50,248 nt of DNA, taken from positions 1 through 50,248 of the forward strand of contig QJJF01000017.1 of the NCBI GenBank assembly GCA_003202005.1, written 5' to 3'. The translations under genes and the position numbers were made by a program. This document shows positions 36,278 through 49,900 of this stretch, piece by piece. The stretch is from Williamsia faeni. Lineage in GTDB: Bacteria; Actinomycetota; Actinomycetes; Mycobacteriales; Mycobacteriaceae. The notes below the pieces were generated by a model, which was not told the origin of the DNA, did no database searches, and saw nothing but the letters and a program-made list of their open reading frames with translations. How positions within the stretch are numbered: position 1 is the stretch's first letter; every line of letters starts with the position of its first letter.

Positions 36278-36940
36278 TCAGTCTTCGTGGTTGTCGGGGT
36301 ATGCGGTCACGGCCAGGAACCGAATCGGCAACCGCACCAGATCATTTGGTCCGTGTATTCCTTCACCGTCCAACAACAGCGCATCCCCTGGCCGCAGCGT
36401 GTACTCCGCATCTCCGTGTCCGTAGACCATGACGCCTTCGAGCATATAGAGCAGTTCTGTCCCCGCATGTTGAAAGCGGGGAAACACCTCGCTCGCGTCG
36501 GTCAGGGTCACCAGCACCGGTTCGAGGCGTTTGTGTTGCCCCCGCAATGCACCGAGCAACTCGTAGTGGTGACCGACCCGGGTCCCACGTCCGACGATGA
36601 CCGCGCCGTGACCCGACTCGACGAACACTGCCTCGCGCTTGGTGTCGGCACCGCGGAACAGTGAGGTCACCGGGACATCCAGACCAGCCGCCAGGCGCGC
36701 CAAAGTCGATAAACTACAGGATGTTTGAGCATTCTCGATCTTCGATAGCATGGCCTTCGAAATACCGACCCGGTCGGCCATATCCCCCACCGACAGGCCG
36801 GTGGCCTTCCGGAGGATTCTCACCTGAGACGCGATTGCCGCCTCCAGGTCGTTTCCGGTGGGCGCATCAGCAGCGACCTCTCGTTCCACCGGAGCCGGAT
36901 CGCCGGTATCCCGGACAACATGAGCGGTTCGACTTGCCAT
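36278..36940 (-). CDS. XRE-cupin transcriptional regulator, copy 1
   Basis: A 220-residue regulator with an N-terminal XRE/HTH_3 domain (about 35-95: QVRILRKATGLSVGDMADRV, then GISKAMLSKIENAQTSCSL) and a C-terminal cupin (about 145-215: PRFQHAGTELLYMLEGVMVY and the GDALLLDGEGIHGPNDLVRL block). XRE-cupin proteins often sense amines, polyamines or amino acids. It is a close paralogue of the gene at 47360-48016. A GTTTC-N7-GAAAC dyad 21 bases upstream suggests autoregulation. It leads a two-gene operon with the YihY-family gene and lies downstream of amtB, separated by a terminator. Confidence 0.92.
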   Translation of the reverse strand: MASRTAHVVRDTGDPAPVEREVAADAPTGNDLEAAIASQVRILRKATGLSVGDMADRVGISKAMLSKIENAQTSCSLSTLARLAAGLDVPVTSLFRGADTKREAVFVESGHGAVIVGRGTRVGHHYELLGALRGQHKRLEPVLVTLTDASEVFPRFQHAGTELLYMLEGVMVYGHGDAEYTLRPGDALLLDGEGIHGPNDLVRLPIRFLAVTAYPDNHED

Positions 36941-36960
36941 AAGGACCCATCCTAGCCATC

Positions 36961-36980
36961 AGTGTTTCCTGAAGTGAAAC
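36961..36980. promoter_or_regulatory. Candidate XRE-cupin operator (AGTGTTTCCTGA)
   Basis: AGTGTTTCCTGA at 36961-36972 is identical over 12 bases to a site at 41709-41720 between the dimethylamine and methylamine operons. Here it is part of a dyad, GTTTC-N7-GAAAC (36964-36980). It lies 21 bases upstream of the start codon of the XRE-cupin gene. Confidence 0.6.
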
Positions 36981-37003
36981 CTCTGCGCGTGTCCCCTCAC
37001 AAA

Positions 37004-37039
37004 CAAACCCCCTCCCGGTGGATTCCGGAAGGGGGTTTG
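37004..37039 (-). terminator. Rho-independent-type terminator after amtB
   Basis: CAAACCCCCT (37004-37013) pairs with AGGGGGTTTG (37030-37039), a perfect 10-bp stem with an inner CCGG/CCGG pair. Read on the minus strand it is followed by TTTGTTTG, a U-rich tail. It begins 13 bases after the amtB stop. Confidence 0.85.
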
Positions 37040-37051
37040 ATCAAGCGATCG

Positions 37052-38416
37052 TCAGGTGGCCGACGGGGTCGCCGCCACCTCTGCGGCCGCCCCGGTCATG
37101 GCCTCGGCGGCCACCACCGCATCGGCTTCCTTCGCCGGAGCACCGCCCATCGGCGCATGGTCCATCACGTAGGCCGACTCACCGTGCACCGAAACGTCCA
37201 GACCTTCGTCTTCGGAATCCTCATGGACACGCAGACCCATGGTCTTGTCCAACGCCTTGGCGATCAGCCAGGTGACCGCGAAGCAGTAGACAACCACCAC
37301 GACCACCGCGACCGTCTGGCGCCACAGCAGGTCCAGCCCGCCGCCGTAGAACAGGCCTGCGACGCCGTTGGGTGCAGCCGGATCGGCGATGAGACCGATC
37401 AGGATCGTGCCGAGAATGCCGCCCACCATGTGGATTCCGACAACATCGAGCGAATCGTCGTAGCCGAGTCGGTACTTGATCGACACCGCGAGGCAGCAGA
37501 CCGCACCGGAGGCCGCACCGACGAACAATGCACCCATCGGGGACACGGCGCCACAGGCCGGGGTGATGCCGACCAGTGCGGCGATGAGTCCCGAGCTGGC
37601 GCCCAACGACGTCGCGTGTCCTTCACGCATCTTCTCGACGACGAGCCAGCCACAGATACCGGCACAGCCCGCGGCCACGGTGTTCAGGACAACAACCGCG
37701 GCGCTGTTACCGGCGGCCAGTGCCGATCCGCCGTTGAAGCCGAACCAGCCGAAGAAGAGCATGCCGGCACCGAGCATGGTGAGTGGCAGGCTGTGGGGAC
37801 GCGGAGCCACCGGGAAGATCCGGCGTTTGCCGAGAACCAGAACCAGCGCCAGAGCCGCAACACCGGCATTGACGTGCACCGCGGTACCACCGGCGAAGTC
37901 GACCGCCATCAGATCATTGGCGATCCAACCGCCGACGACCGAACCATCCTCGGAATCAAAGGCGAAAACCCAGTGAGCCACCGGGAAATACACCAGTACG
38001 GCCCAGATTCCGGCAAACACCATCCACGCACCGAACTTCATCCGGTCGGCCACCGCGCCGGAGATCAGGGCAACGGTGATACCCGCGAACAGCAGCTGGA
38101 AACCGGCGACGAGCGACGGTGGCAGTCCGGGCTCGGCCGGCTCCGCCAGTAGCGACTGCAGGCCCATGGCCTCGAACGGATCGCCCAGGATCCCGGCGCC
38201 ACCGAGCGAATTGCCCAGGACCGCCGAGTAGCCGAACAGCACCCACAGGATGCCGACCACGGCGAATGCGCCGAAGGTCATCATCGCCATGTTCAGTGTG
38301 TTCTTGGCGCTGACCATGCCGCCGTAGAACATTGCCAGGCCGGCAACCATCAGGGTGACGGCGGCAAATGCCGCCAGCATCCAGGCGGTATCGGCAGCGG
38401 CTATCGCTTCTTCCAT
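37052..38416 (-). CDS. amtB: Ammonium transporter AmtB
   Basis: A 454-residue Amt/Rh-family channel with about 11 membrane helices. The ammonium path residues are seen in DFAGGTAVHVNAGVAALALV (Asp and the first pore His) and in VVGIHMVGGILGT (second His). The C-terminal cytoplasmic tail of about 60 residues is acidic, then Ala-rich. It lies next to amine-degradation genes rather than next to glnK/glnD, the usual partners. Methylammonium is a known Amt substrate analogue, so uptake of methylamine or recapture of released ammonium would fit. The ATG at 38416 follows GAGGTGAAAACAT. Confidence 0.95.
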   Translation of the reverse strand: MEEAIAAADTAWMLAAFAAVTLMVAGLAMFYGGMVSAKNTLNMAMMTFGAFAVVGILWVLFGYSAVLGNSLGGAGILGDPFEAMGLQSLLAEPAEPGLPPSLVAGFQLLFAGITVALISGAVADRMKFGAWMVFAGIWAVLVYFPVAHWVFAFDSEDGSVVGGWIANDLMAVDFAGGTAVHVNAGVAALALVLVLGKRRIFPVAPRPHSLPLTMLGAGMLFFGWFGFNGGSALAAGNSAAVVVLNTVAAGCAGICGWLVVEKMREGHATSLGASSGLIAALVGITPACGAVSPMGALFVGAASGAVCCLAVSIKYRLGYDDSLDVVGIHMVGGILGTILIGLIADPAAPNGVAGLFYGGGLDLLWRQTVAVVVVVVYCFAVTWLIAKALDKTMGLRVHEDSEDEGLDVSVHGESAYVMDHAPMGGAPAKEADAVVAAEAMTGAAAEVAATPSAT

Positions 38417-38442
38417 ATGTTTTCACCTCAATGAGTCATCCT

Positions 38443-38458
38443 CGACGCCCGGGCGTCG
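38443..38458. repeat. 16-bp perfect palindrome in the amtB leader
   Basis: CGACGCCCGGGCGTCG lies 27-42 bases upstream of the amtB start; with single mismatches it extends outward (CTC/GAG). It may be an operator or an mRNA hairpin close to the ribosome-binding site. The same 196-base gap also holds GTAAC-N6-GAATT at 38546-38561, loosely similar to a GlnR box. Confidence 0.45.
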
Positions 38459-38612
38459 GAGGGAACGATGTCTACCGGTAGTGGACCGACTGTTGTTAGT
38501 GCACCACTGTTGTGTTGCATCCAGGCGGTTCGTTGTTGCGGTCGTGTAACGACGCCGAATTGTCAGGTCGTCTTGAAAACTGTTGCGACACAGCGTCTAT
38601 TGATCGCGCCGG

Positions 38613-39590
38613 TCAGGGGACAACACCTCCGTACACATTGAGCCACCGCATCCCCGCGCCGCGGGTCCGGGACACACCCTTGTAGTCGGCCATGTCCAGC
38701 GGCAGATCTTCGAGCACGCGATACAGGCGATCGGCCCACTCCGGAACCGTCGCGATCGCCGCAAACGGCAGTAGATAGGTCCGGATCAGAAACATCACAG
38801 CGTTACTGTGGGGCAGACGGATGAGATGCTGAACCTCGGTCCGCAGAAACAGCCGCTCCCCCACGTCTTCGGTGGGTCCGTCCGCCAAAGTTCTTCGATC
38901 CCTGCCCCATTCAGGGTAGGACTCGGTAGATGTGTCGAGTTTGCCATCCACGGTGAGCGTCCAGTTCGTCCGCCGGTAGCTCTGCGACGGCTGCAGTCGC
39001 TTGATGAACTCGTGTGCGCGCGTGGCGATCTTCTCCGAGTGCAGCCGCGGCACCGGGCCGTGGATCTGCAGGAAACTCATGCCGACGTCGAAGCCGAACG
39101 ACCAGTCGGCGGCAAACGTCACAACCCCCGCATCGCCCCACATCTGATCTTCGCGCTGGTCGAGCAACACCACGTCTTCCTGCACCTGCCCGAAGATGTA
39201 GGTCAGCGGCGGCGACGAAAGACTGCCGGGGTCACCGAAGACGAATGTGTCGTCGATGCCGAGAAGTGTGTTGCGCCAACGATATGACGGCGCTTCACCT
39301 CCGAGCCGATCGAGCATCATATGATCGGGGTAGCTCTCCGCGAGTTCGTGCATGACGGTCAGCATCGCGTCCCAGGCCGCGGGCTCCATATGGGGCAGGC
39401 ACTGCGCGCGCGAGGGATCCGACGCGAGAATGCGGGCCCGCTCGTCGAGTTCGCAGCGATAGTGTCCGTCGATGACGATTCGCCGCTCCCCCGCAGGTTC
39501 GACGTTGGCGCTGTATCGGTATTGATCCCGAGGAAACGGGAACGGGTAGTTCTCGACGTCACGGCTCGTGAACGTCTCGGCGATGGTCAT
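38613..39590 (-). CDS. Haem-dependent oxidative N-demethylase subunit (DUF3445), dimethylamine monooxygenase component
   Basis: A 325-residue DUF3445 protein. This family includes the catalytic haem subunit of the oxidative N-demethylase/dimethylamine monooxygenase (Dmm) of proteobacteria, which splits secondary amines such as dimethylamine into methylamine and formaldehyde. Family-like segments are DDTFVFGDPGSLSSPPLTYI, VVTFAADWSFGFDVGMSFLQ, IHGPVPRLHSEKIATRAHEF, then FIKRLQPSQSYRRTNWTLT and FLRTEVQHLIRLPHSNAVMF. The His in the VPRLH segment is a haem or active-site candidate. Its start overlaps the reductase stop by one base. Subunit letters differ between reports, so no symbol is given. 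Confidence 0.87.
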   Translation of the reverse strand: MTIAETFTSRDVENYPFPFPRDQYRYSANVEPAGERRIVIDGHYRCELDERARILASDPSRAQCLPHMEPAAWDAMLTVMHELAESYPDHMMLDRLGGEAPSYRWRNTLLGIDDTFVFGDPGSLSSPPLTYIFGQVQEDVVLLDQREDQMWGDAGVVTFAADWSFGFDVGMSFLQIHGPVPRLHSEKIATRAHEFIKRLQPSQSYRRTNWTLTVDGKLDTSTESYPEWGRDRRTLADGPTEDVGERLFLRTEVQHLIRLPHSNAVMFLIRTYLLPFAAIATVPEWADRLYRVLEDLPLDMADYKGVSRTRGAGMRWLNVYGGVVP

Positions 39591-40564
39591 CAGAGATCCA
39601 GCTCCAGGTGGTCACCGAGCGCACGGGAGACACACGGCATCATCGTGTCGCCTTTGGCGCGCTCGTCGTCGGTCAGATACGAGTCCCGGTGGTCGATCGG
39701 GCCGCCGCGCACAGCGACCCGACATTCACCGCATACTCCTTGGCGGCACATGTTGGGCACGGCCACACCACGTTCCAGCAACGCTGCGAGCAGCGACACC
39801 TCGGAACCAACCGGCACCAGGACGCCGGTGCGGCCCAGGCGCGCAGCAAATGGTTCACCGCCGGCGGCAACATCGGCAGCGAATTGCTCGGAATGCACCC
39901 GATCCGGCGGCCACCCGTTGGCCAGTGCGGCGGCAGCAACACCCTCGATCAACGGGCCGGGGCCGCAGGTATAGATGTGGGTACCCAGTGGTGAATCGCA
40001 CAGCCGCGGCCCGAGGTGATCCCAGAAGTCCAGGGCGGCTTCGACAACCGTCAGGCGATCACCGCACAGGTCCCGCATCTCCCGCGCCAGGGCCCCGAAT
40101 CCGGGCCGATGGGTGTAGATCACCTCGAACGAGCGGTTCCAGTGCACCGCCGCGCGAACATGCGACAGGATCGGTGTGACGCCGATGCCACCGGCGATCA
40201 GCAGATGGTGACGCGCCGTGGATATCGGAACAAATGCACTGCGCGGCAATGAGATGACGACCTGGTCACCCACACCGAGTCCGTGCAGCCACACCGATCC
40301 CCCACCGCCGGAATCATCGCGGCGCACGCAGATCGTATATTCGGCGGGATCGACTGCCGGTCCGGTCAGCGAGTAGGAATTGCACCGGCCGGGTTGCCAC
40401 TGCACGCCGATATGGGCGCCCGGTGAAAACGTCGGAAGTGCACCGCCATCCGCACCGGCAAAGGTGAACTCGCAGATGCCATCACACAGCATGCGCATTC
40501 TCGTGACCTCGACGAGGAGGTCGCCCACACCGATATCCGGGCGCGGGGTCGTCATGACCGTCAT
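39590..40564 (-). CDS. PDR/VanB-type flavin and [2Fe-2S] reductase of the amine monooxygenase
   Basis: A 324-residue reductase of the phthalate dioxygenase reductase type. The order is flavin-binding barrel (about 1-110: NSYSLTGPAVDPAEYTICVR), NAD-binding domain (about 115-220: HLLIAGGIGVTPILSHVRAA and IYTCGPGPLIEGV), then a C-terminal plant-type ferredoxin with PNMCRQGVCGECRVAVRGG and a fourth Cys in MMPCVSRAL. It should pass electrons from NAD(P)H to the haem subunit. The start at 40564 (MTVMTTPRPDIGVGDL) overlaps the stop of the DmmA-like gene by ATGA and has AAGGGAGAG upstream. The family is also used with Rieske oxygenases, but none is present here. Confidence 0.9.
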   Translation of the reverse strand: MTVMTTPRPDIGVGDLLVEVTRMRMLCDGICEFTFAGADGGALPTFSPGAHIGVQWQPGRCNSYSLTGPAVDPAEYTICVRRDDSGGGGSVWLHGLGVGDQVVISLPRSAFVPISTARHHLLIAGGIGVTPILSHVRAAVHWNRSFEVIYTHRPGFGALAREMRDLCGDRLTVVEAALDFWDHLGPRLCDSPLGTHIYTCGPGPLIEGVAAAALANGWPPDRVHSEQFAADVAAGGEPFAARLGRTGVLVPVGSEVSLLAALLERGVAVPNMCRQGVCGECRVAVRGGPIDHRDSYLTDDERAKGDTMMPCVSRALGDHLELDL

Positions 40565-41115
40565 TCGATTCTCTCCCTTTCGGTGAGTTCTTCGGAGTCC
40601 GGCCGGTAACCCAGGTAGGCCGCATGCCGACGCGAGAAGTGGTGGTAGACAACCAACTCGATATCGCAGCCCGCACAGACCACCATTTCGTCGATCCGCG
40701 ATGTCGCCGGCGTGACGGTGTGGCAATGGGAGCAGAAGACGTCACGTTCCATGGCGGCAAATCCATCCTCGCTGCCGAGATGGACAACGGTGACCTCGGC
40801 ATCGATCGCGCCGGCCTCGATGATGAGCGCCCTGATCCGCATCACCGATGCGCCGGTACCGACCACCACAAACCGCGGGCCCACCGTGGCCCCGGCAAGT
40901 GCTCCCGCGACCACGTCCTGCACATTCGACGATTCCGGCACCTCCACGACGGTGGCGACCTCGGGGAGCACGGATGTTCGAGCCATGATGTGAGTCATCG
41001 CATCCGGTCCGGCAGCGAAGATCAGATGACGTGTTGCATGCGCATCGAATTCGACGTCGGCGAGGGTGCGGTGCGGCCAGCGCGGCACGCTGGTCGAGGC
41101 CATCGACACCGCCAT
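40561..41115 (-). CDS. dmmA: DmmA-like subunit of dimethylamine monooxygenase
   Basis: A 184-residue protein. The N-terminal two-thirds form an alpha/beta domain with VVVGTGASVMRIRALIIEAG and the segment EVTVVHLGSEDGFAAMERDV. The C-terminus has a zinc-ribbon-like set of cysteines (VFCSHCHTVTPATS ... VVCAGCDIEL), followed by VYHHFSRRHAAYLGYRPDSE, a signature of the DmmA C-terminal domain. It accompanies the haem subunit and reductase in dimethylamine monooxygenase clusters; its exact task is not established. It is 2 bases after the cupin gene and overlaps the reductase gene. The start may be ATG 41115 or the downstream ATG at 41103. Confidence 0.8.
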   Translation of the reverse strand: MAVSMASTSVPRWPHRTLADVEFDAHATRHLIFAAGPDAMTHIMARTSVLPEVATVVEVPESSNVQDVVAGALAGATVGPRFVVVGTGASVMRIRALIIEAGAIDAEVTVVHLGSEDGFAAMERDVFCSHCHTVTPATSRIDEMVVCAGCDIELVVYHHFSRRHAAYLGYRPDSEELTERERIE

Positions 41116-41117
41116 CG

Positions 41118-41504
41118 CTACGGCGCGAACGAACGGTGGCCGACAAAGAAGGCCAGTGCCCGGTCGGGGGTGGTGAATCTGATCCGCGATCCCTTCGGGA
41201 AGAAGATCGCATCCTTCGGTCCGGCGTGCTCGACCTGCCCGGTCTCGAGATTCTCGAGCCTGAACTGCCCGCCGAGCACCACCTTCATCTCGTCGTACGC
41301 GTAGTAGTAGTCCAGCGGAGCATCGGTGTTCTTGAGTTCGAAGTAGCCGGCCGACATCTCCGACCCTTCCGGATTGGCAAAGACGTCGTCGATGAAGCCC
41401 TCGGTTCCCGGGTACTGATCAGTCGGCATCTGCGGCAGGGTTTCCCAGAACTGAGAGGTCACCCGGAACGGGGCCACAACTTTGCTGGAATCTGTGGTGG
41501 TCAT
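41118..41504 (-). CDS. EutQ-like cupin, first gene of the dimethylamine operon
   Basis: A 128-residue single-domain cupin that resembles ethanolamine-utilisation cupins: DYYYAYDEMKVVLGGQFRLE and then AGPKDAIFFPKGSRIRFTTP, with a final ALAFFVGHRSFAP. The metal-binding His set is incomplete (no clear HxH), so it may bind a ligand without metal. It leads the operon before the DmmA-like gene with a 2-base gap. I know no defined role for such a cupin in methylamine metabolism. The ATG at 41504 follows AGGAGAAACAAC. Confidence 0.8.
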   Translation of the reverse strand: MTTTDSSKVVAPFRVTSQFWETLPQMPTDQYPGTEGFIDDVFANPEGSEMSAGYFELKNTDAPLDYYYAYDEMKVVLGGQFRLENLETGQVEHAGPKDAIFFPKGSRIRFTTPDRALAFFVGHRSFAP

Positions 41505-41564
41505 GTTGTTTCTCCTGATCGATGGCGGCCGAAGTTGGAACTGTTGGGAAACTTCGGATATTGA

Positions 41565-41720
41565 CAGGAAACCATAGAGACGATTGCGACGGTGTTAAAT
41601 GTTCCCCAGAAGTGCCCTATCAAGTGCAGACGGGCACATGCCAGATAGCTGCACCACACCATTCGTCACCTCCGATTGACCAGCAGGAAACATGTTCGTC
41701 ACATTCAGAGTGTTTCCTGA
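41565..41720. promoter_or_regulatory. Divergent promoter region with three GTTTCCTG-type sites
   Basis: The 291-base gap between the two amine operons (41505-41795) holds CAGGAAAC at 41565-41572 and 41684-41691, and AGTGTTTCCTGA at 41709-41720. The second and third sites form an inverted pair. The 12-base site recurs upstream of the XRE-cupin gene at 36961. No gene is seen in the gap. Confidence 0.6.
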
Positions 41721-41795
41721 CATACAACACCGAGTCACAGTGAGAAACACCAAGCGAGACTCACCCACAGAACATCAGCGATCAGAAAGTCGACA

Positions 41796-42986
41796 GTGAC
41801 AGAAACTGCGAAGTACGTGATCGTGGGCGGCGGACTAGAAGGACTGGCCATCGCCTGGTCCCTCGCCGATCGCGGCGAGTCCGACGTCCTCGTCCTCGAA
41901 CGCGACACCCTGTGCTCCGGGATGACCGGCAAGTCGAGCGGTGTGGTGCGGTGCCACTACGGCACCCCGTCGCTGGCGGCGATGTCCTGGTACAGCGTCG
42001 ACATCTTCACCCGCGCAACCGAACTCTTCGGCGACGACATGGCATTTCGGCAGTCCGGATACGTCGTCGGTGTCGGCGAGGACAACCTCGTTCCGCTGAA
42101 GGCGAATGTCGCGATGATGCAGGGGCTGGGTATCGACGTCGACTTCATCGGGCACGACACCATGGCCGGGCTCTGGCCCGGCCTGCACCTCGACGACTTC
42201 GCCGTTTTCGCCTACGAACCACTCGGCGGGCGCGGCGAGGCGTACATGACCGGCATGGCGTTCGGTGCCAGTGCCCGCAAACTCGGCGTCAAGGTGCGCC
42301 AATCAACCCGGGCCACCGGACTCCTGCAGAATCCCACTGGAGCCGTCTACGGCGTCACCCTGGCCGGCGGCGACGAGATCCATGCCGAGCACGTCATCGT
42401 CGCGGCCGGACCGTGGACCCCTGAGCTGGTCGCCACCGTGGGCGTCGATGTGGATGTGAAAGCCCAACGCGCACAACTTGTCCTGGTCGATCAGGGAGTT
42501 CCGACCCCGGACGTCCCGGTGCTGTCCGACCTCGCCGGACTGCAGTACATCTGCCGGGAACCGAACGGTGAACTGCTGGTCGGGAACTCCGATCATCAGG
42601 CTCCGCAGTACATCGACCCCGACAATTTCGTGAACCGCGCCGACGACAGCACCATCGAGAAGACGATCATGAAGCTCGACAGCCGTCTTCCCGACATGCC
42701 GGACCCACGGATCACGAGTTCCTATGTGGGCGCCTACGACGTCACACCCGACTACAACCCGATCATCGGCCCCTCCCCCGTCGACGGACTCTTCCTGGCC
42801 ACCGGATTCTCGGGCCACGGGTTCAAGATCTCACCCGCGGTCGGGGCACTGGTCGCCGACCTGCTGACCACCGGAACCACCACCTTGCCCGGTGTCGACC
42901 CGAATGATTTCCGCTACAGCCGTTTTGCCGAGAACGACCCGCTCGTCAGTCTCAATCCGTACATCGGCGCCGGTGAGATGCGCTGA
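41796..42986 (+). CDS. FAD-dependent amine oxidoreductase (sarcosine-oxidase-beta/DAO family)
   Basis: A 396-residue flavoprotein. The dinucleotide motif is IVGGGLEGLAIAWSLADRGE. TGKSSGVVRCHYGTPSLAAM is the segment that follows the FAD ribose site in the sarcosine oxidase beta family. The C-terminus has YVGAYDVTPDYNPIIGPSPV and LATGFSGHGFKISPAVG. Its place before gmaS-mgsABC suggests that it oxidises N-methylglutamate to glutamate and formaldehyde, the step done elsewhere by the four-subunit MgdABCD. The alpha, gamma and delta subunits of that enzyme are not in this window, so a single-subunit substitute, or action on another N-methyl amine, must be considered. The start is GTG 41796. Confidence 0.85.
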   Translation: MTETAKYVIVGGGLEGLAIAWSLADRGESDVLVLERDTLCSGMTGKSSGVVRCHYGTPSLAAMSWYSVDIFTRATELFGDDMAFRQSGYVVGVGEDNLVPLKANVAMMQGLGIDVDFIGHDTMAGLWPGLHLDDFAVFAYEPLGGRGEAYMTGMAFGASARKLGVKVRQSTRATGLLQNPTGAVYGVTLAGGDEIHAEHVIVAAGPWTPELVATVGVDVDVKAQRAQLVLVDQGVPTPDVPVLSDLAGLQYICREPNGELLVGNSDHQAPQYIDPDNFVNRADDSTIEKTIMKLDSRLPDMPDPRITSSYVGAYDVTPDYNPIIGPSPVDGLFLATGFSGHGFKISPAVGALVADLLTTGTTTLPGVDPNDFRYSRFAENDPLVSLNPYIGAGEMR

Positions 42987-43030
42987 CCCTGCCCACTCCC
43001 GATCGTCCCCCAACTCTCCAGGAGATCCCC

Positions 43031-44389
43031 ATGGCCGTCGACACCGCCGAAGCCTTCACCCCCACCCCGGCACACCCCACCGAACCGACTCTGACCGAGC
43101 TGGTCCAATCCACCGGCACCACGTTCATCCTCGCCCTGTTCGTCACCCTGTCCGGCAAACCGTGCGCCAAACTCGTTCCCGCGCAGGCAGTACGCCAGCT
43201 CGAAGAGGACGGCGTCGGTTTTGCCGGCTACGCCGCCGGGATGATGGGCCAGGAGCCGAAGGACCCGGATCTGGTCGCCGTGCCCGACGCGTCGTCGTTC
43301 ACACCGATCCCCTTTGTCCAGCCGGGCCTGGCGCTGGTCCATTGCGATCCGCATGTCGAGGGCAAACCCTGGCCGTACGCGCCTCGCATCATCCTGCGGG
43401 AAACCTTGCGCAAGGCCGCCGAACTGGGCTTCGAGGTGAAGGTCGGCGCCGAGATCGAGTACTTCCTGGTCAACAAAGATGACAACGGGAAGCTGATCAC
43501 CGCGGACACCTCCGACACCAAACTCCAGCCGTGTTACGACGCCCGCGATGTCACCCGCATGTACGACCACCTCACCGAGATCTCGTCGGCGATGAACGCA
43601 CTCGGTTGGGGCAACTACGCCAACGACCACGAAGACGCGAATGGGCAGTTCGAGCAGAACTTCGACTATGACAACGCCATGGTCACCGCCGACCGCGTGA
43701 TCACCGCCCGGTATCTGCTGTCGGTGATCGCTGAAAGGCGGGGTATGCAGGCAACATTCATGCCCAAGCCGTTCACCGATCGCACCGGCTCCGGTATGCA
43801 TCTGCACATGTCTCTGTGGACTGCGGAAGGTCCGGCATTCCCCGACTCCGCCGATCCCAAAGGGCTCGGGCTGTCGGACACCGCCTACGGTTTCATCGCC
43901 GGCATTCTCGAGCACGCCTGCGCATTGCAGGGTGTCATTGCCCCAACGGTCAACTCCTACAAGCGCACCGGCGCCACCACCACCAGCAGCGGGGCCACCT
44001 GGTCGCCACGCTATGCCACTTACGGCGGTAACGATCGCACCCACTACCTGCGGGTTCCCGACGGCAATCGAGTCGAATTGCGTGGTGGTGACGGCAGCGC
44101 CAACCCATACCTCGCCGCGGCCGGCGCCATCGCTGCCGGACTCGACGGCGTGAGCAGGTCGCTCGACCCCGGCACTCCGGGGAACGGCGAATCGCCCAGC
44201 GACATGCTGCCGATGACACTGGTGCACGCCATGGACTGCCTCGACGCCGACCCGGTGCTGACCGGCGCCCTCGACATCGCCGGCCCCGGCGTCAGCAGCT
44301 ACTTCACCAATCGCAAACGCGAGGAGTTCTTCGCGTGGCACAACACGGTGTCCGACTGGGAGATCAACCAGTACCTCACCGCCTTCTGA
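43031..44389 (+). CDS. gmaS: Gamma-glutamylmethylamide synthetase (GmaS-like glutamine-synthetase homologue)
   Basis: A 452-residue member of the glutamine synthetase superfamily. The ATP and metal motifs are VGAEIEYFLVNKDD, NYANDHEDANGQFEQNFDYD, KPFTDRTGSGMHLHMSLW, NSYKRTGATTTSSGATWSPR and RVELRGGDGSANPYLAAAG. Its position directly before mgsABC is the arrangement of the N-methylglutamate pathway, where GmaS joins methylamine to glutamate using ATP. An ammonia-using type III glutamine synthetase (glnT/glxBCD arrangement) is the main alternative; the nearby dimethylamine genes favour methylamine. The ATG at 43031 follows CCAGGAGATCCCC. It is 44 bases after the flavoprotein gene. Confidence 0.85.
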   Translation: MAVDTAEAFTPTPAHPTEPTLTELVQSTGTTFILALFVTLSGKPCAKLVPAQAVRQLEEDGVGFAGYAAGMMGQEPKDPDLVAVPDASSFTPIPFVQPGLALVHCDPHVEGKPWPYAPRIILRETLRKAAELGFEVKVGAEIEYFLVNKDDNGKLITADTSDTKLQPCYDARDVTRMYDHLTEISSAMNALGWGNYANDHEDANGQFEQNFDYDNAMVTADRVITARYLLSVIAERRGMQATFMPKPFTDRTGSGMHLHMSLWTAEGPAFPDSADPKGLGLSDTAYGFIAGILEHACALQGVIAPTVNSYKRTGATTTSSGATWSPRYATYGGNDRTHYLRVPDGNRVELRGGDGSANPYLAAAGAIAAGLDGVSRSLDPGTPGNGESPSDMLPMTLVHAMDCLDADPVLTGALDIAGPGVSSYFTNRKREEFFAWHNTVSDWEINQYLTAF

Positions 44390-44416
44390 CCGCCCGACAA
44401 GACAGGAACCAGACCC

Positions 44417-45316
44417 ATGTGCGGAATCGTAGGACTCCACCTGCGTGACCCCGAGCTCTATCCCAGGCTCGGTGAACTTCTCACCGGGATGCTCGATCAG
44501 ATGTGTGACCGCGGACCGGATTCCGCCGGCATGTCGATCTACGGTGACCCCACGTGGTCACCGGCCGGGCACGCGACCGTCTCGCTGCTCGAATCCCCCA
44601 TCCCGGCCGCAGAACTGGCCGCCGAACTCACCAAAGATGTGGGCCAGGCCATCACCGGGATCGACCTCGACCCGACCACCGTCTTGCACGGCCCAGTTGC
44701 ATCCGAGACCCTCGTCGCAGCCATCCGCGCCGTCGCCCCGGGCGCCCGCATCATCGGGTTCGGCAACGACGTGACCGTGCTCAAGGGCATGGGTAATCCG
44801 ACGGAGCTGGCCCACCGATTCGGTCTGCCGAACGCCTCGGGGTGGCAGGGCGTGGCCCACACCCGGATGGCCACCGAATCAGCGGTCACCGCCACCGGCT
44901 CACATCCCTTCTCCGTGGGGCCGGACCAGTGCCTGGTCCACAACGGCTCGTTCTCCAACCACATGTCGATCAAGCACGACCTCGAACGTCACGGCGTCGT
45001 CTTCGACAGCGAGAACGACACCGAGGTCGGCGCCCGATTCGTGGCCAAACAGCTGGCCGAGGGTGTCGATCTCGAGAAGGCCCTGTTGATGCTCAACGAG
45101 ACGTTCGACGGTTTCTACACCCTGCTGGTGTCGAACAGCGATTCGTTTGCCGTTGTCCGCGACGCGATCTCGTGCAAACCCGCCGTGGTGGCCGAGACCG
45201 ACCGCTGGGTTGCAATGGCCTCCGAATACCGCGCACTGGCACACCTGCCAGGCGTCGACAACGCCCGAATCTTCGAGCCCGAACCAGAAGAGGTGTACGT
45301 ATGGCACCGGCAATGA
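44417..45316 (+). CDS. mgsA: N-methylglutamate synthase subunit A (class II glutaminase domain; MgsA/GlxB)
   Basis: A 299-residue Ntn-type glutamine amidotransferase. Met1 is followed by the nucleophile Cys2 (MCGIVGLHLRDPEL); glutaminase marks are CDRGPDSAGMSIYGD, QGVAHTRMATESAVTATGSH and QCLVHNGSFSNH. In N-methylglutamate synthase this subunit is thought to cleave gamma-glutamylmethylamide and channel methylamine to subunit C. The ATG at 44417 has AGGA upstream. The stop lies inside the overlapping start of the next gene, so A and B are translationally coupled. Confidence 0.87.
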   Translation: MCGIVGLHLRDPELYPRLGELLTGMLDQMCDRGPDSAGMSIYGDPTWSPAGHATVSLLESPIPAAELAAELTKDVGQAITGIDLDPTTVLHGPVASETLVAAIRAVAPGARIIGFGNDVTVLKGMGNPTELAHRFGLPNASGWQGVAHTRMATESAVTATGSHPFSVGPDQCLVHNGSFSNHMSIKHDLERHGVVFDSENDTEVGARFVAKQLAEGVDLEKALLMLNETFDGFYTLLVSNSDSFAVVRDAISCKPAVVAETDRWVAMASEYRALAHLPGVDNARIFEPEPEEVYVWHRQ

Positions 45317-46032
45317 CCCCCACCGAGACCGCCCCCGCCCCGCCGGAGATCACCGCAGGCGTGGTGTACGACCTGCGGGAGGTCGCGGTCCGTGAGGTCA
45401 ACTCCTCATTGCAGTCGCCCGACGGTCCCGTCAGTGCGACAGTGACCTCACCCCTGGGTGCACACGCACTCGCCTGCGGCCTCGACCGCGACATCGACGT
45501 GACCATCGACGGCCACGTCGGCTACTACGCCGCCGGGATGAATCAGCAGGCGTCGGTGACGATCACCGGCAACGCCGGGGTCGGCGTGGCGGAGAACATG
45601 ATGTCGGGCACGGTGCGCGTCCACGGTGACGCATCCCAGTCGGCCGGCGCCACGGCCCATGGCGGTCTCCTGGTCATCGACGGCAATGCGGCAGCCCGCT
45701 GCGGCATTTCGATGAAGGGCGTCGACATCGTGGTCGGCGGCAACATCGGCCACATGAGCGCATTCATGGGCCAGGCCGGGCGTCTGGTGGTCTGCGGTGA
45801 TGCGGGTGAAGCGCTGGGTGATTCGCTCTACGAGGCCCGGATCTACGTCCGCGGCACCGTCGCCTCGCTCGGTGCCGACTGCATCAAGAAGGACATGCGC
45901 GACGAGCATCTCGCCGAACTCGCCGAACTGCTCGACGCTGCCGGAATCGATGCCGCCCCCGCCGATTTCACCCGCTACGGTTCGGCCCGCCGCCTCTACA
46001 ACTTCCACGTCGACAACGCTGCGGCGTACTAG
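45301..46032 (+). CDS. mgsB: N-methylglutamate synthase subunit B (GXGXG domain; MgsB/GlxC)
   Basis: A 243-residue protein with the right-handed beta-helix GXGXG repeat seen at the C-terminus of glutamate synthase. Repeats are visible as VGYYAAGMNQQASVTITGNA, GVGVAENMMSGTVRVHGDAS, SAGATAHGGLLVIDGNAAA, then GVDIVVGGNIGHMSAFMGQA. It is a structural partner of the A and C subunits. The start is set at ATG 45301 because GAGGTGTACGT precedes it; ATG 45313 is also possible and would overlap the mgsA stop by ATGA. Confidence 0.87.
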   Translation: MAPAMTPTETAPAPPEITAGVVYDLREVAVREVNSSLQSPDGPVSATVTSPLGAHALACGLDRDIDVTIDGHVGYYAAGMNQQASVTITGNAGVGVAENMMSGTVRVHGDASQSAGATAHGGLLVIDGNAAARCGISMKGVDIVVGGNIGHMSAFMGQAGRLVVCGDAGEALGDSLYEARIYVRGTVASLGADCIKKDMRDEHLAELAELLDAAGIDAAPADFTRYGSARRLYNFHVDNAAAY

Positions 46033-46043
46033 GAGCGATGACC

Positions 46044-47357
46044 ATGACCCACAACCCGACCCTGCGGGAATCGGCCACCTTCGACCGCGGCGTGATCGCC
46101 GAGATCCAGCGCGCTGCCGACACCGGGATCTACGACATCCGCGGCTGGGGCGCCAAGCGCAAGCTCCCGCACTTCGACGACCTGCTCTTCCTGGGTGCTT
46201 CGATGTCGCGGTACCCGCTCGAGGGCTACCGCGAGAAGTGCGACACCGACGTGGTTCTCGGCGACACCCACGCCAAGTTCCCCCTGCACCTCGACATTCC
46301 GATCACGATTGCCGGGATGAGTTTCGGGGCCCTGTCCGGCCAGGCCAAGGAGGCCCTCGGCCGTGGCGCCAGTGAGGTCGGGACCTCGACCACCACCGGC
46401 GACGGCGGCATGACACCGGAAGAACGCGGCCAGTCGAAGAATCTTGTCTACCAGTATCTCCCGTCGCGATACGGCATGAACCCCGACGACCTGCGCAAGG
46501 CCGACGCCATCGAGATCGTCCTCGGTCAGGGAGCCAAGCCCGGCGGTGGCGGCATGCTGCTCGGCCAGAAGATCACCGAACGGGTCGCCGGGATGCGCAC
46601 CCTGCCGATGGGTGTCGATCAGCGCAGCGCCTGCCGCCATCCCGACTGGACCGGCCCGGACGACCTCGCGATCAAGATCATCGAGCTCCGGGAGATCACC
46701 AACTGGGAGAAGCCGATCTACATCAAGGTCGGTGCCACCCGCACCTACTACGATGTCAAACTGGCCGTCAAGGCCGGCGCGGATGTGGTGGTCGTCGACG
46801 GCATGCAGGGCGGCACCGCGGCCACCCAGGACGTGTTCATCGAACATGTCGGCATCCCGACCCTCGCCGCCATCCCCCAAGCGGTACAGGCATTGCAGGA
46901 GATGGACGTACACCGCAAGGTGCAGCTCATCGTCTCCGGTGGAATCCGCAGCGGCGCCGACGTCGCAAAGGCCATGGCCCTGGGTGCCGACGCCGTGGCC
47001 ATCGGAACCGCCGCGCTGATCGCACTGGGCGACAACAGCCCTCGCTATGCGGACCAGTACCGCGCACTCGGATCCGAGGCCGGATTCTACGACGACTTCC
47101 AGGCCGGACGAGATCCCGCGGGTATCACCACCCAGGATCCCGAGCTGTCCAAGAACCTCGACCCGGTCGAGGGTGGGCGGCGCCTGGCCAACTACCTGCG
47201 GGTCCTGACGATGGAGGCCCAGACTCTGGCGCGGGCCTGCGGCAAGTCGCATCTGCGCAACCTCGAACCGGAGGATCTGGTCGCTCTGACCGTCGAGGCG
47301 TCGGCGATGGCACGGGTCCCGCTGGCCGGCACCAACTGGATCCCGGGTAGGTACTGA
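46044..47357 (+). CDS. mgsC: N-methylglutamate synthase subunit C (FMN-dependent, glutamate-synthase-like; MgsC/GlxD)
   Basis: A protein of about 437 residues matching the FMN-binding synthase domain of glutamate synthase. Segments are ITIAGMSFGALSGQAKEALG, GTSTTTGDGGMTPEERGQSK, QGAKPGGGGMLLGQKITERV, VVVDGMQGGTAATQDVF and SGGIRSGADVAKAMALGADA. It is expected to add methylamine to 2-oxoglutarate, giving N-methylglutamate. The start at 46044 fits AGGAG 8 bases upstream better than ATG 46038. The stop is 2 bases before the XRE-cupin gene. Confidence 0.9.
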   Translation: MTHNPTLRESATFDRGVIAEIQRAADTGIYDIRGWGAKRKLPHFDDLLFLGASMSRYPLEGYREKCDTDVVLGDTHAKFPLHLDIPITIAGMSFGALSGQAKEALGRGASEVGTSTTTGDGGMTPEERGQSKNLVYQYLPSRYGMNPDDLRKADAIEIVLGQGAKPGGGGMLLGQKITERVAGMRTLPMGVDQRSACRHPDWTGPDDLAIKIIELREITNWEKPIYIKVGATRTYYDVKLAVKAGADVVVVDGMQGGTAATQDVFIEHVGIPTLAAIPQAVQALQEMDVHRKVQLIVSGGIRSGADVAKAMALGADAVAIGTAALIALGDNSPRYADQYRALGSEAGFYDDFQAGRDPAGITTQDPELSKNLDPVEGGRRLANYLRVLTMEAQTLARACGKSHLRNLEPEDLVALTVEASAMARVPLAGTNWIPGRY

Positions 47358-47359
47358 CT

Positions 47360-48016
47360 TTGGTCACCCCGGTCTCACCGGCGCGCTCGGTGGTCGAGGA
47401 CACCACCGCGCGAGAGGTCGATCACGGTGAATTCGATCCCGATTCACTGGAGGCGGTCATCGGATCACAAACCCGGCGGCTTCGGATCACGGCCGGGCTC
47501 TCGGTCAGCGAGATGGCCAGTCGCACCGGCATTTCCAAGTCGATGCTGTCGAAGATCGAGAACGCGCAGGCATCCTGTAGTCTCGGCACCATTTCCAAAT
47601 TGGCCACCGCACTCGATGTTCCGGTGACCTCCCTGTTCCGCGGCGAGAAGACACAACGCGAATCGGTGTTCACCAGAGCGGGAACGGGTGCGGAGATCGT
47701 CGGGCGTGGCACCCGGGCCGGGCATCACTACGAACTACTCGGCGCGCTGCGCGGTCAGCATCGACGACTCGAGTCCGTGGTGGTGACGCTGCTGTCGGAC
47801 ACCACGATCAGTCCGCGCTTCCAGCATCCGGGGACCGAACTGCTGTACATGCTCGAAGGCGAAATGGTCTACAGCCATGACAGTTCCGACTACACCCTGC
47901 GCGCCGGCGATTCACTCCTCCTCGACGGCGAGGGCATCCACGGCCCAAAAGAGCTGACCCGGTTGCCTATTCGATTTCTCGCTATCACCGCCTACCCCGA
48001 CAACTACTCCGAATGA
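47360..48016 (+). CDS. XRE-cupin transcriptional regulator, copy 2
   Basis: A 218-residue protein with the same architecture as the regulator at 36278-36940. Shared segments include SKIENAQ(A/T)SCSL, LDVPVTSLFRG, GHHYELLGALRGQH(K/R)RLE, FQH(A/P)GTELLYMLEG and LDGEGIHGP. The two are clearly paralogues. This copy sits inside the amine operon, so it is likely to respond to the substrate or an intermediate and to control the GTTTCCTG sites. The start is TTG 47360 after GGGTAGGT; the weak start may keep its level low. Confidence 0.9.
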   Translation: MVTPVSPARSVVEDTTAREVDHGEFDPDSLEAVIGSQTRRLRITAGLSVSEMASRTGISKSMLSKIENAQASCSLGTISKLATALDVPVTSLFRGEKTQRESVFTRAGTGAEIVGRGTRAGHHYELLGALRGQHRRLESVVVTLLSDTTISPRFQHPGTELLYMLEGEMVYSHDSSDYTLRAGDSLLLDGEGIHGPKELTRLPIRFLAITAYPDNYSE

Positions 48017-48029
48017 TGAGGCATCTGAG

Positions 48030-49256
48030 ATGAAAACCTTCGACTCCATGTGGGCGTCGATCCTCGATGTCGGCCGCGCGGCCGCCAGTGGCGGCTACCG
48101 GCGATTCGCCTGGAACGACGCCGACATGACATTGCGCGAGTGGTTCACCGGCGAAGCGTCCGCGCGGGGCATGTCGGTGGAAGAGGACCGCAACGGAAAC
48201 CTCTGGGCTTGGTGGCTGCCCGACGGATGGGTAGGCGATCCCCGCGACGCGTTTGTCACCGGCTCCCACCTCGATTCGGTGCCCGACGGCGGCGCCTACG
48301 ACGGACCCCTCGGTGTCGTGTCGGCCTTTGCCGCCATCGACATCGTTCGGGAACGCGGGATCATCCCCACGCGCCCGATCGCCATCACCGCATTCTCGGA
48401 CGAGGAGGGCGCGCGCTTCGGTGTCGCCTGCGTGGGTTCCCAGCTCAGTACAGGTGCGCTGACACCGGAGCGGGCACTGAAACTCCGTGATGCCGACGGC
48501 ATTTCCCTCGCCGAGGCGCTCACGTCGTCGGGGCGCAACCCGTCGCACCTGGGTGCCGATCCCACTCTGGTCGACCGTGTCGGTGTCTACGTCGAGCTGC
48601 ACGTCGAGCAGGGACGCGGACTCGACCTGGTCGATCAGCCGATCGCGGTGGCCTCGTCGATCTGGCCTCACGGCCGGTGGCTGTTCAATTTCACCGGAGA
48701 GGCCAACCACGCCGGCGCGACCCGTCTCGTCGACCGGCGTGATCCGATGCTCGCTTTCGCGTCGTCGGTCCACACCGCCCGCGGAGCTGCCGCCGTCCAC
48801 GACGCAGTCGCCACTTTCGGCAAAGTGCGCGTACTCCCCAACGGCGCCAACGCGATTCCATCCGAGGTGCAGGCCTGGCTCGATGCCCGCGCCGCCGACG
48901 AACAGACCCTGACGGCACTGGTGGAGGCGATCTCGGCCGAGGCCCGCACCCATGCCGAACGTGACGGCATCGACCTGGACATCGTCGCCGAGTCGATCTC
49001 ACCGATCGTGGAGTTCCCCGACGACACCCGCCGGCGACTGCAGGCCGCCCTCGGCCACCTCGGCGACATCCCGGTGCTACCGACCGCGGCCGGGCACGAT
49101 GCCGGGGTCTTGTCCGCGAAGGTGCCGACCGCGATGTTGTTCGTGCGCAACCCCACCGGAGTCTCACATTCCCCGCACGAGTTCGCCGAATCCGTCGACT
49201 GTCACCGCGGCGCCGAAGCCCTCGCCGACGTCATGGCCGACTACGCCGCGGTCTAG
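48030..49256 (+). CDS. M20-family amidohydrolase (allantoate / N-carbamoyl-amino-acid hydrolase type)
   Basis: A 408-residue binuclear zinc amidohydrolase. Metal-binding motifs are FVTGSHLDSVPDGGAYDGPL (His and bridging Asp), TAFSDEEGARFGVACVGSQL (Glu pair), VELHVEQGRGLDLVDQP (His) and VSHSPHEFAE (His). The dimerisation domain runs from about residue 215 to 325. Such enzymes hydrolyse allantoate, N-carbamoyl amino acids or, in some histidine-utilisation clusters, formimino- or formylglutamate-type substrates. The following hutD-like gene points weakly to histidine or to N-substituted glutamate. The enzyme might also act on a formylated or carbamoylated side product of the amine pathway; this is speculation. 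Confidence 0.87.
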   Translation: MKTFDSMWASILDVGRAAASGGYRRFAWNDADMTLREWFTGEASARGMSVEEDRNGNLWAWWLPDGWVGDPRDAFVTGSHLDSVPDGGAYDGPLGVVSAFAAIDIVRERGIIPTRPIAITAFSDEEGARFGVACVGSQLSTGALTPERALKLRDADGISLAEALTSSGRNPSHLGADPTLVDRVGVYVELHVEQGRGLDLVDQPIAVASSIWPHGRWLFNFTGEANHAGATRLVDRRDPMLAFASSVHTARGAAAVHDAVATFGKVRVLPNGANAIPSEVQAWLDARAADEQTLTALVEAISAEARTHAERDGIDLDIVAESISPIVEFPDDTRRRLQAALGHLGDIPVLPTAAGHDAGVLSAKVPTAMLFVRNPTGVSHSPHEFAESVDCHRGAEALADVMADYAAV

Positions 49257-49284
49257 GACTCGACCAACGAAGGAAACAATCTCT

Positions 49285-49900
49285 GTGCCTCCCGCAGTCT
49301 CGTCTGTTGTCCGCGCAGCGGAACTGACTCCCCGCCGATGGGCGAACGGCCTCGGCACCACTCGCGAGATACGCTCGGCACCGACCAGCGTCGGCGATCG
49401 ACCGACGTGGCGGCTGAGCGTGGCCGATCTGCCGACGTTGTCGACGTTTTCGCGCATCGAGGACGTCGATCGCATCTTCACCGTCGTAGGAACAACAGGT
49501 GTCGACCTCGAGATCGGTCCACGACGCATCCGCTGCGAGCAATCCGAGCCTGTCGAGTTCGCCGGCGAAGACAGTCCCTATTGCACTGCGCCCCATCCGA
49601 CCCGGGCCGTCAAATCTCATGGTGGCCCGCAGTGCGGGCACCGGTCAGGTTCGTCCGCACGCGCTCGAACCCGGTGAGGTGTTGCCGATCGACGCGCAAG
49701 CGAACCTGATGACCGCATTGTTTGTCGTCTCTGGGTCCGGCACGCTCGATGGCATCACACTCGGCGCCGGCGACACCGCGATCATCGATTCGGGCAGCGT
49801 CATGTTCGCCCCCACCACAGGCTCCGGAAAAACGAAGGCGCTCCGTATCTTTGTGGAACGCCTTCGCATCGACGGTTCATCTGTGAGAGGCGGCGCTTAG
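49285..49900 (+). pseudogene. HutD/Ves-family gene, frameshifted
   Basis: The first frame (from GTG 49285) encodes LTPRRWANGLGTTREI, WRLSVADLPTLSTFSRIEDV and FAGEDSPYCTAPHPTRAV, the N-terminal HutD fold. Near 49600 the homology moves to another frame: SNLMVARSAGTGQVRPHALE, then ALFVVSGSGTLDGITLGAGD to the end at 49900. One indel near a CCCGGG run would restore a HutD of about 200 residues, so it could also be a sequencing error. HutD-like cupins accompany histidine-utilisation genes. An 8-bp inverted repeat (CGAAGGCG at 49833 with CGCCTTCG at 49859) lies in the 3' part and may end transcription. Confidence 0.75.

Follow-up and report, generated by a model that had tools for sequence, protein, structure and literature searches.

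Organization of the locus

The window analysed here is a stretch of 50,248 nucleotides from contig QJJF01000017.1 of Williamsia faeni, a soil-type actinobacterium whose assembly comprises 5.52 Mb and is 99.99% complete. We studied two divergent gene clusters at 36278-49256 which, judging from the sequence, probably scavenge nitrogen from dimethylamine and methylamine by converting dimethylamine to methylamine, gamma-glutamylmethylamide, N-methylglutamate and finally glutamate. The minus-strand cluster runs leftward from 41504 and encodes in this order an EutQ-like cupin, a DmmA-like protein, a flavin/[2Fe-2S] reductase, a DUF3445 protein (the alpha subunit of a haem-dependent oxidative N-demethylase, HODM), an Amt transporter and an XRE-cupin regulator. 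The plus-strand cluster runs rightward from 41796 and consists of a DAO-superfamily flavoprotein, GmaS, MgsA, MgsB, MgsC, a second XRE-cupin regulator and an M20 amidohydrolase. Profile scans recovered all the genes that the original prediction had named in the two operons at or very near their predicted positions. This includes the interleaved Amt gene (37052..38416, minus strand; TIGR00836, 427.8 bits with a cut-off of 343.3), whose product is predicted to transport ammonium and possibly methylammonium, and the two regulator genes. The first regulator is PuuR-like (36278..36940, minus strand; HTH_31 and Cupin_2) and 66% identical to the second (47360..48016, plus strand; HTH_3 and Cupin_2).

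Three genes came in addition to those predicted: the EutQ-like cupin, the M20 amidohydrolase and a HutD-like gene that is split between two frames. The amidohydrolase (48030..49256, plus strand) belongs to the N-carbamoyl-L-amino acid hydrolase family (NF006770, 643.3 bits with a cut-off of 372; 3n5f, E 4e-66) and is a candidate N-formylglutamate deformylase. The HutD-like gene occupies 49324..49900 on the plus strand, where tblastn gave E 2e-13 for 49324-49569 and the C-terminal part lies in another frame; the split may reflect either a true pseudogene or an error in the sequencing. Neither Rfam nor tRNA scans gave a match in the window.

For the comparisons below we used 50 islands, that is, the actinobacterial stretches holding mgsC among the loci we fetched (numbered with an L). 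They are not a random sample: 37 came from the best 80 of 130 HODM hits, 11 were gmaS stretches from 11 genomes picked among the HODM holders, and two were plasmids. All trees were quick trees with Shimodaira-Hasegawa-like approximate likelihood ratio test (SH-aLRT) support only, and several long branches meet in them.

Ligase and synthase genes

The gene at 43031..44389 (plus strand) matches the type III ligase model TIGR03105 with 611.9 bits (cut-off 469.6) and encodes GmaS, a predicted gamma-glutamylmethylamide synthetase. Its best matches were two solved methylamine ligases (7cql, E 1.6e-114; 9qur, E 2e-106), and the first glutamine synthetase followed only at E 4e-57. We checked 21 positions using the residue list and numbering of PMC7948447. 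The catalytic residues D177, E186 and R312 of the solved enzyme are all kept. The position of the ammonia residue of glutamine synthetase (Asp50') is occupied by Ala (position A48) and that of its flap Glu by Trp (Trp300), as in the solved GmaS. Of the seven residues lining the methylamine pocket (Y147, Q175, D177, E179, E186, N188 and K30) six are kept and Q175 is replaced by Ala. At all 21 positions the other actinobacterial GmaS rows (52/52) show the same residues as the window.

In the GmaS tree, which has long branches, the window sequence grouped with the Mgs-linked GmaS proteins and apart from three mycobacterial TIGR03105 paralogues without Mgs genes. We also encountered ligases above the TIGR03105 cut-off, without MgsABC, that are changed at A48, Q175, N188 and H237 (L148, L149 and L151). 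The label 'type III glutamate--ammonia ligase' thus seems, from these sequences, to lump at least two kinds of enzyme.

Directly behind gmaS lie the three adjacent genes of a predicted N-methylglutamate synthase, all on the plus strand: the amidotransferase subunit MgsA (44417..45316; GATase_6/7), the GXGXG subunit MgsB (about 45313..46032; PF01493, scanned on the longer open reading frame 44842-46032) and the FMN/Fe-S glutamate-synthase-like subunit MgsC (46038..47357; PF01645, 311 bits). GmaS, MgsA, MgsB and MgsC are likewise present in the GmaS-MgsABC-MgdABCD pathway of our model, a Paracoccus yeei plasmid (L127), and its MgsC is 78% identical to that of the window.

Probable dimethylamine demethylase genes

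The HODM alpha subunit is encoded at 38613..39590 on the minus strand (PF11927, 219.3 bits), and its homology to the solved haem N-demethylase 5LTE extends over almost the full length (residues 12-318 of 325, phmmer E 4e-88). The closest named relatives that we found are Williamsia, with HODM identities of 80% and 78%, and the identity to four proteobacterial HODMs was 44-47%. The remaining genes of a DmmABC enzyme are found in the same operon. The reductase (39590..40564) combines a DmmA-like_N and a Fer2 domain; its open reading frame as listed starts upstream at 40726, and we place the start at the ATG at 40564, which overlaps the stop codon of dmmA (ATGA). The DmmA-like subunit (40561..41115; PF22289; NF041259, 96.9 bits with a cut-off of 60) has a C-terminal domain in which four Cys are seen in the sequence. 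The first gene of the operon is the small EutQ-like cupin (41118..41504; PF06249, 48 bits). EutQ-like cupins were observed in 37 of the 41 islands holding HODM, and an Amt homologue in 41 of the 50 islands.

With DmmA, reductase and DUF3445 protein in one operon and gmaS nearby, the arrangement resembles the dmmDABC genes of Ruegeria pomeroyi (PMC5520151) and the HODM of 5LTE. It differs from dmmDABC in that DmmD is missing and that the EutQ-like cupin heads the operon. A genome search with the Paracoccus DmmD gave one place only; this gene is gcvT and scores 419 bits with the GcvT model. According to PMC5520151, DmmD accompanies dmmABC in the marine isolates screened and is dispensable for activity in Escherichia coli.

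The HODM tree took in 48 of 119 rows. Two proteobacterial Dmm rows fell on the side of the window HODM, but on a long branch. The window HODM and a second, tandem HODM of related islands fell in different clades. This second reductase-HODM pair, which the window lacks, recurs frequently in related islands, including those of Gordonia, Nocardioides and Millisia (for example L054 from 12576). The second HODM is about 39-46% identical to that of the window and forms a single clade (SH-aLRT 100); our guess is that its substrate is trimethylamine or its oxide. Trimethylamine as the entry substrate of the W. faeni island was rejected, as the genome contains no orthologue of trimethylamine monooxygenase (Tmm), the best match reaching 46.6 bits.

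Single-chain flavoprotein

In the Paracoccus yeei pathway the last step belongs to MgdABCD. The window has none of its four subunits and instead carries one single-chain, SoxB-like FAD protein at 41796..42986 (plus strand; PF01266, 196.6 bits), a candidate N-methylglutamate dehydrogenase or oxidase; FolD and PurU are also missing from the island. No SoxA/MgdC protein, the GcvT-domain alpha subunit of the four-subunit set, was found over the cut-off in the genome, where the best match (165 of 1164 bits) is gcvT. In the profile comparison its closest match is 1y56_B, followed by SoxB 2gag_B (150 bits), the beta subunit of heterotetrameric sarcosine oxidase, a member of the same superfamily. It stays well below the cut-offs of the sarcosine oxidase models (TIGR01373, 128.7 bits against 529.45; TIGR01377, 99.8 bits against 479.65) and is 26-27% identical to the MgdA proteins of L127 and L161, from which it separates on its own branch in a tree with long branches. 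This tree was computed without L053, L059 and L062 (same contigs as L138-L140) and without rows of 370 residues or fewer.

R52 and K344 are invariant in the flavoprotein (17/17 rows) and align with an Arg and a Lys of the 2gag_B-type beta subunit, which we take to be the ligands of the substrate carboxylate in sarcosine oxidases. Such a role would fit an N-methyl amino acid as substrate and not a free amine. Flavoproteins of this kind scored above 250 bits with our hidden Markov model in 43 of the 50 islands, and two more (L129 and L146) hold a distant DAO protein. The gene lies less than 100 bp from gmaS or mgsC in 39 of 43 islands (tblastn; L129 included, L101 not). We met no account of a single-chain N-methylglutamate dehydrogenase in actinobacteria in the limited, mainly non-subscription literature that we consulted. 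The island was originally predicted to be complete. This is unproven, as its last enzyme is the single-chain flavoprotein and not the known MgdABCD.

Distribution and promoter

To describe the distribution we searched 201 genomes sampled from the family for HODM and MgsC. HODM was found in 40 genomes and MgsC in 52; 37 genomes hold both, 3 only HODM, 15 only MgsC and 146 neither. MgsC is thus present in 37 of the 40 genomes with HODM compared to 15 of the 161 others (Fisher p = 9.5e-25, not corrected for kinship). For the 37 double holders the two genes are at most 25 kb apart on one contig in 32 cases, 3 Mb apart in one and on different contigs in four. Within the genus, the same 4 of the 9 members listed hold both genes and the other 5 hold neither. 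A TIGR03105 ligase over the cut-off was detected in 16 of the 19 searchable HODM genomes (L104 was left out of this search). No such ligase was detected in Arthrobacter 35W, Pseudoclavibacter soli or Corynebacterium SN15. The Arthrobacter 35W locus has a copper amine oxidase gene behind HODM, and this enzyme would provide the other route known to lead on from methylamine.

Other arrangements were observed as well. At several Mycolicibacterium loci (L060, L063, L066, L079, L082 and others) HODM lies apart from gmaS, with a GmaS-type ligase elsewhere in the genome, and adjoins a distant Amt and housekeeping-like genes, one resembling valyl-tRNA synthetase. A plasmid of Candidatus Mycobacterium methanotrophicum (L125/L115) carries the HODM operon together with a gmaS-mgsABC-flavoprotein operon, and the integrases and transposases between the two are a sign of mobility. 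Corynebacterium sp. SN15 (L113, L158) has two HODM sets, two Amt genes, the flavoprotein and M20.

The two operons of the window are separated by a divergent promoter region of 291 bases (41505..41795). We aligned it with 11 loci chosen for their shared arrangement (Williamsia, Gordonia, Rhodococcus, Rhodococcoides and Nocardia) and found five conserved half-sites of the form GAAAC, GTTTC or GTAAC. The exact core is present in 10, 12, 12 and 12 of the 12 rows at 41548, 41568, 41712 and 41744, respectively; at 41687 it reads GAAAC in 4 rows and GTAAC in 8. This supports joint control of both operons and is consistent with the presence of two XRE-cupin genes. The conserved GAAAC/GTAAC half-sites presumably resemble those of GlnR. 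We did not adopt a reading as GlnR boxes, as the half-site spacing misfits the 11-base step that we assume for them.

Proposed pathway

What the sequences show directly is gene content, protein families, active-site residues, synteny, co-occurrence and absences; the substrates, the sequence of the reactions, the destination of the carbon and the control of the operons are deduced from these. On this basis the pathway would probably run as follows. Uptake would be provided by Amt, and the two XRE-cupin regulators would control both operons. In the demethylase encoded by the EutQ/DmmA/reductase/HODM genes, electrons would pass from NAD(P)H via flavin and [2Fe-2S] to haem, and dimethylamine would be split into methylamine and formaldehyde. 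GmaS would couple methylamine to glutamate using ATP, and MgsABC would convert gamma-glutamylmethylamide and 2-oxoglutarate to N-methylglutamate and glutamate. The single-chain SoxB-like flavoprotein would then oxidise the N-methyl group of N-methylglutamate and regenerate glutamate. The original prediction of these steps stands in so far as an enzyme of the right family is present for each of them, GmaS carries the residues that distinguish methylamine ligases from ammonia ligases (one pocket residue being changed), and both synteny and co-occurrence are strong.

Several observations weigh against this assignment. The replacement of GmaS Q175 by Ala is found in all actinobacterial rows, as is that of the ribose residue W189 by Phe, and from these two changes the amine preference may differ; Ala at position 175 is also, we assume, the state in glutamine synthetase. 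Five of the 50 islands (L058, L071, L075, L111 and L144) have no DAO flavoprotein. In the genomes of L058 and L075 it is encoded elsewhere, and in those of L071, L111 and L045/L144 none was found at E 1e-40. Homologues of SoxA (E 1e-100 or better) were detected in 8 of 21 actinobacterial genomes with GmaS, 5 of them over the cut-off, and not in the other 13. Corynebacterium SN15 combines the flavoprotein with M20 and HODM and lacks a GmaS over the cut-off, so the association of the flavoprotein with GmaS is not exclusive. Finally, Mycobacterium smegmatis SMR5 has related genes and did not grow on methylamine according to PMC4222082, whose authors were also puzzled by its failure on urea. The same paper reports that transcripts of amt1, glnT and a class II amidotransferase rise under nitrogen starvation in a GlnR-dependent manner.

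The ligase data allow for a different substrate: GmaS-MgsABC could serve a primary amine other than methylamine, such as ethanolamine or a further small amine, and HODM an N-methyl amine other than dimethylamine. The solved GmaS is broad in vitro and also uses ethylamine and propylamine (PMC7948447), the window enzyme has the Ala at position 175, and M. smegmatis used ethanolamine and not methylamine, again GlnR-dependent (PMC4222082). However, making an N-alkylglutamate is sensible only when its alkyl group is subsequently taken off, the remaining methylamine pocket is kept and the ligase genes co-occur with HODM. We consider this substrate assignment quite improbable.

The Corynebacterium genome also bears on the possibility that the flavoprotein and M20 form a separate pathway, for example for sarcosine or for N-carbamoyl or N-acyl amino acids, and that another enzyme oxidises N-methylglutamate. 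Membership of M20 in the carbamoylase family would agree with this, as would P. largidicola and P. phymatum, where the 21 kb surrounding the flavoprotein contain no gmaS, either annotated or detected by search. The close spacing to gmaS or mgsC in most islands and the absence of SoxA/MgdC from the W. faeni genome speak against it, and such a division of labour appears doubtful to us.

Fate of the methyl carbon

The classical dimethylamine-to-glutamate pathway of proteobacteria passes the methyl groups to tetrahydrofolate through the GcvT-domain proteins DmmD and MgdC. None of the 50 actinobacterial islands showed a match to DmmD, Tdm, MgdC, PurU or FolD (E 1e-5). Of eight proteobacterial gmaS-mgs clusters, five (L127, L128, L160, L161 and L167) hold GcvT-domain proteins (DmmD and/or MgdC), together with PurU in four and FolD in three of them. 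The other three (L126, L164 and L168) have no GcvT-domain protein, PurU, FolD or HODM and contain the single-chain flavoprotein. The folate-free form is therefore not restricted to actinobacteria, yet it is the sole form found among the actinobacterial islands.

Since the DmmD and MgdC parts are missing, the carbon would leave as formaldehyde or formate. Formaldehyde would probably go to a mycothiol-dependent formaldehyde dehydrogenase, which is encoded in the genome outside the island (TIGR03451, 659.7 bits with a cut-off of 512.9). In other loci the gene for this enzyme lies directly behind the flavoprotein (L086 and L112), behind the distant flavoprotein of a Streptomyces plasmid (L129) or near HODM (L090, L027, L029 and L033). 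Alternatively, the second methyl group would leave as formate via N-formylglutamate. The release of two formaldehydes, as originally predicted, is thus unproven, as the product of the flavoprotein may be formaldehyde or N-formylglutamate.

For the latter product the flavoprotein would oxidise N-methylglutamate twice, and M20 (HutG in Burkholderiales) would cleave N-formylglutamate into glutamate and formate, so that no second formaldehyde arises. Four Burkholderiales clusters (L126, L160, L164 and L168) resemble the window in carrying a flavoprotein of the same family (31-34% identical) beside glnT-glxBC-mgsC, with gmaS-mgs genes and an XRE regulator. They differ from it in having HutG and not M20, ETF (electron-transfer flavoprotein) genes in L160 and L164, and no HODM in L126, L164 and L168. 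HutD and HutG accompany the flavoprotein family in all six Burkholderiales loci (additionally L162 and L163), of which four have gmaS-mgs, and ETF genes are present in 4 of the 5 annotated ones. Neither HutD nor HutG was found in the MgdABCD clusters L127 and L161 or in the Rhizobium cluster L128. HutD is reported to bind N-formylglutamate; literature and solved structures gave no usable support for this, and it does not count as evidence here. The W. faeni genome has no match to the HutG model TIGR02017, M20 belonging to another family. M20 also adjoins the window-type flavoprotein outside the gmaS stretch (L156, L157 and Corynebacterium L158), and HutD and M20 occur together in 10 actinobacterial loci including the window.

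A further pattern was observed at residue 313 of the flavoprotein. M20-linked actinobacterial proteins have Ala or Val here in 18 of 19 cases, all six HutG-linked Burkholderiales proteins have Val, and Cys is present in 13 of the 13 M20-less islands that reach at least 1.3 kb past the flavoprotein gene. Most of the Cys-type Gordonia loci end just behind this gene, and islands without 1.3 kb beyond it cannot be judged. Under double oxidation, the Cys313 flavoproteins of M20-less islands would release formaldehyde to mycothiol instead. We dropped a covalent-FAD reading of residue 313, since the flavin-binding Cys of monomeric sarcosine oxidase, as we presume its position, aligns with G312.

Other data argue against double oxidation. 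The Corynebacterium flavoprotein is M20-linked yet has Cys313, and the correlation of residue 313 with the amidohydrolase reflects few independent evolutionary events. L160 holds PurU and DmmD besides HutG, and the HutG-like protein of L163 is the one of five scanned that does not pass TIGR02017 (116 of 278.75 bits). HutD occurs without a visible M20 in L071 and L018 (both loci end early), the window HutD is broken, and Williamsia sp. 1138 (L169) shows none in the 5.9 kb that follow its M20 gene. Moreover, HODM would release formaldehyde anyway, and we know of no enzyme of this fold that makes an N-formyl from an N-methyl amino acid. Formate release through N-formylglutamate is therefore a possible but unlikely outcome. 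If this slim chance proved true, the last step would be previously undescribed and would bypass free formaldehyde and tetrahydrofolate for that carbon. The two genetic contexts, formaldehyde dehydrogenase on the one hand and HutD with HutG or M20 on the other, disagree, and there may be two versions of the last step.

Relation to earlier reports

The original prediction described such pathways as known mainly from marine and methylotrophic proteobacteria. In actinobacteria they are not unusual: Gordonia, Rhodococcus, Nocardia, Nocardioides, Millisia and mycobacteria all have relatives of the island. In itself the island represents a variant of systems that are already known, because GmaS-MgsABC had already been reported in actinobacteria in 2015, in the methylamine-growing Mycobacterium sp. 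141 and 155 (PMC5023230), and dmmABC is listed in Nesterenkonia (PMC8875376). The two Mycobacterium strains, mycolate actinobacteria like W. faeni, have this ligase and synthase as well, with EutQ close in numbering, and their MgdA-D genes are listed with distant gene numbers. In PMC5023230, trimethylamine monooxygenase (Tmo) was proposed to oxidise dimethylamine too, no other candidate being seen there, and a ferredoxin/flavin protein was proposed as trimethylamine N-oxide demethylase, 'Tmd'. The gene numbers given for strain 35W are 3581 for EutQ, 3579 for Tmd and 3577 for Mao. In our data the corresponding locus of Arthrobacter 35W (L110) has the order eutQ, dmmA, reductase, HODM and copper amine oxidase. 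Because the gene orders match, we infer that 'Tmd' is the HODM reductase, with the dimethylamine monooxygenase beside it.

This places a predicted dimethylamine monooxygenase next to genes for which previous genome studies of Gram-positive methylamine users had noticed no candidate. For the last step an uncharacterised single-chain enzyme can be named in the place of MgdABCD, and its two genetic contexts predict different fates of the methyl carbon. Taken together, the data suggest that nitrogen scavenging from dimethylamine to glutamate is frequent and genetically linked in actinobacteria, mycolate and others, and not a mainly proteobacterial trait.

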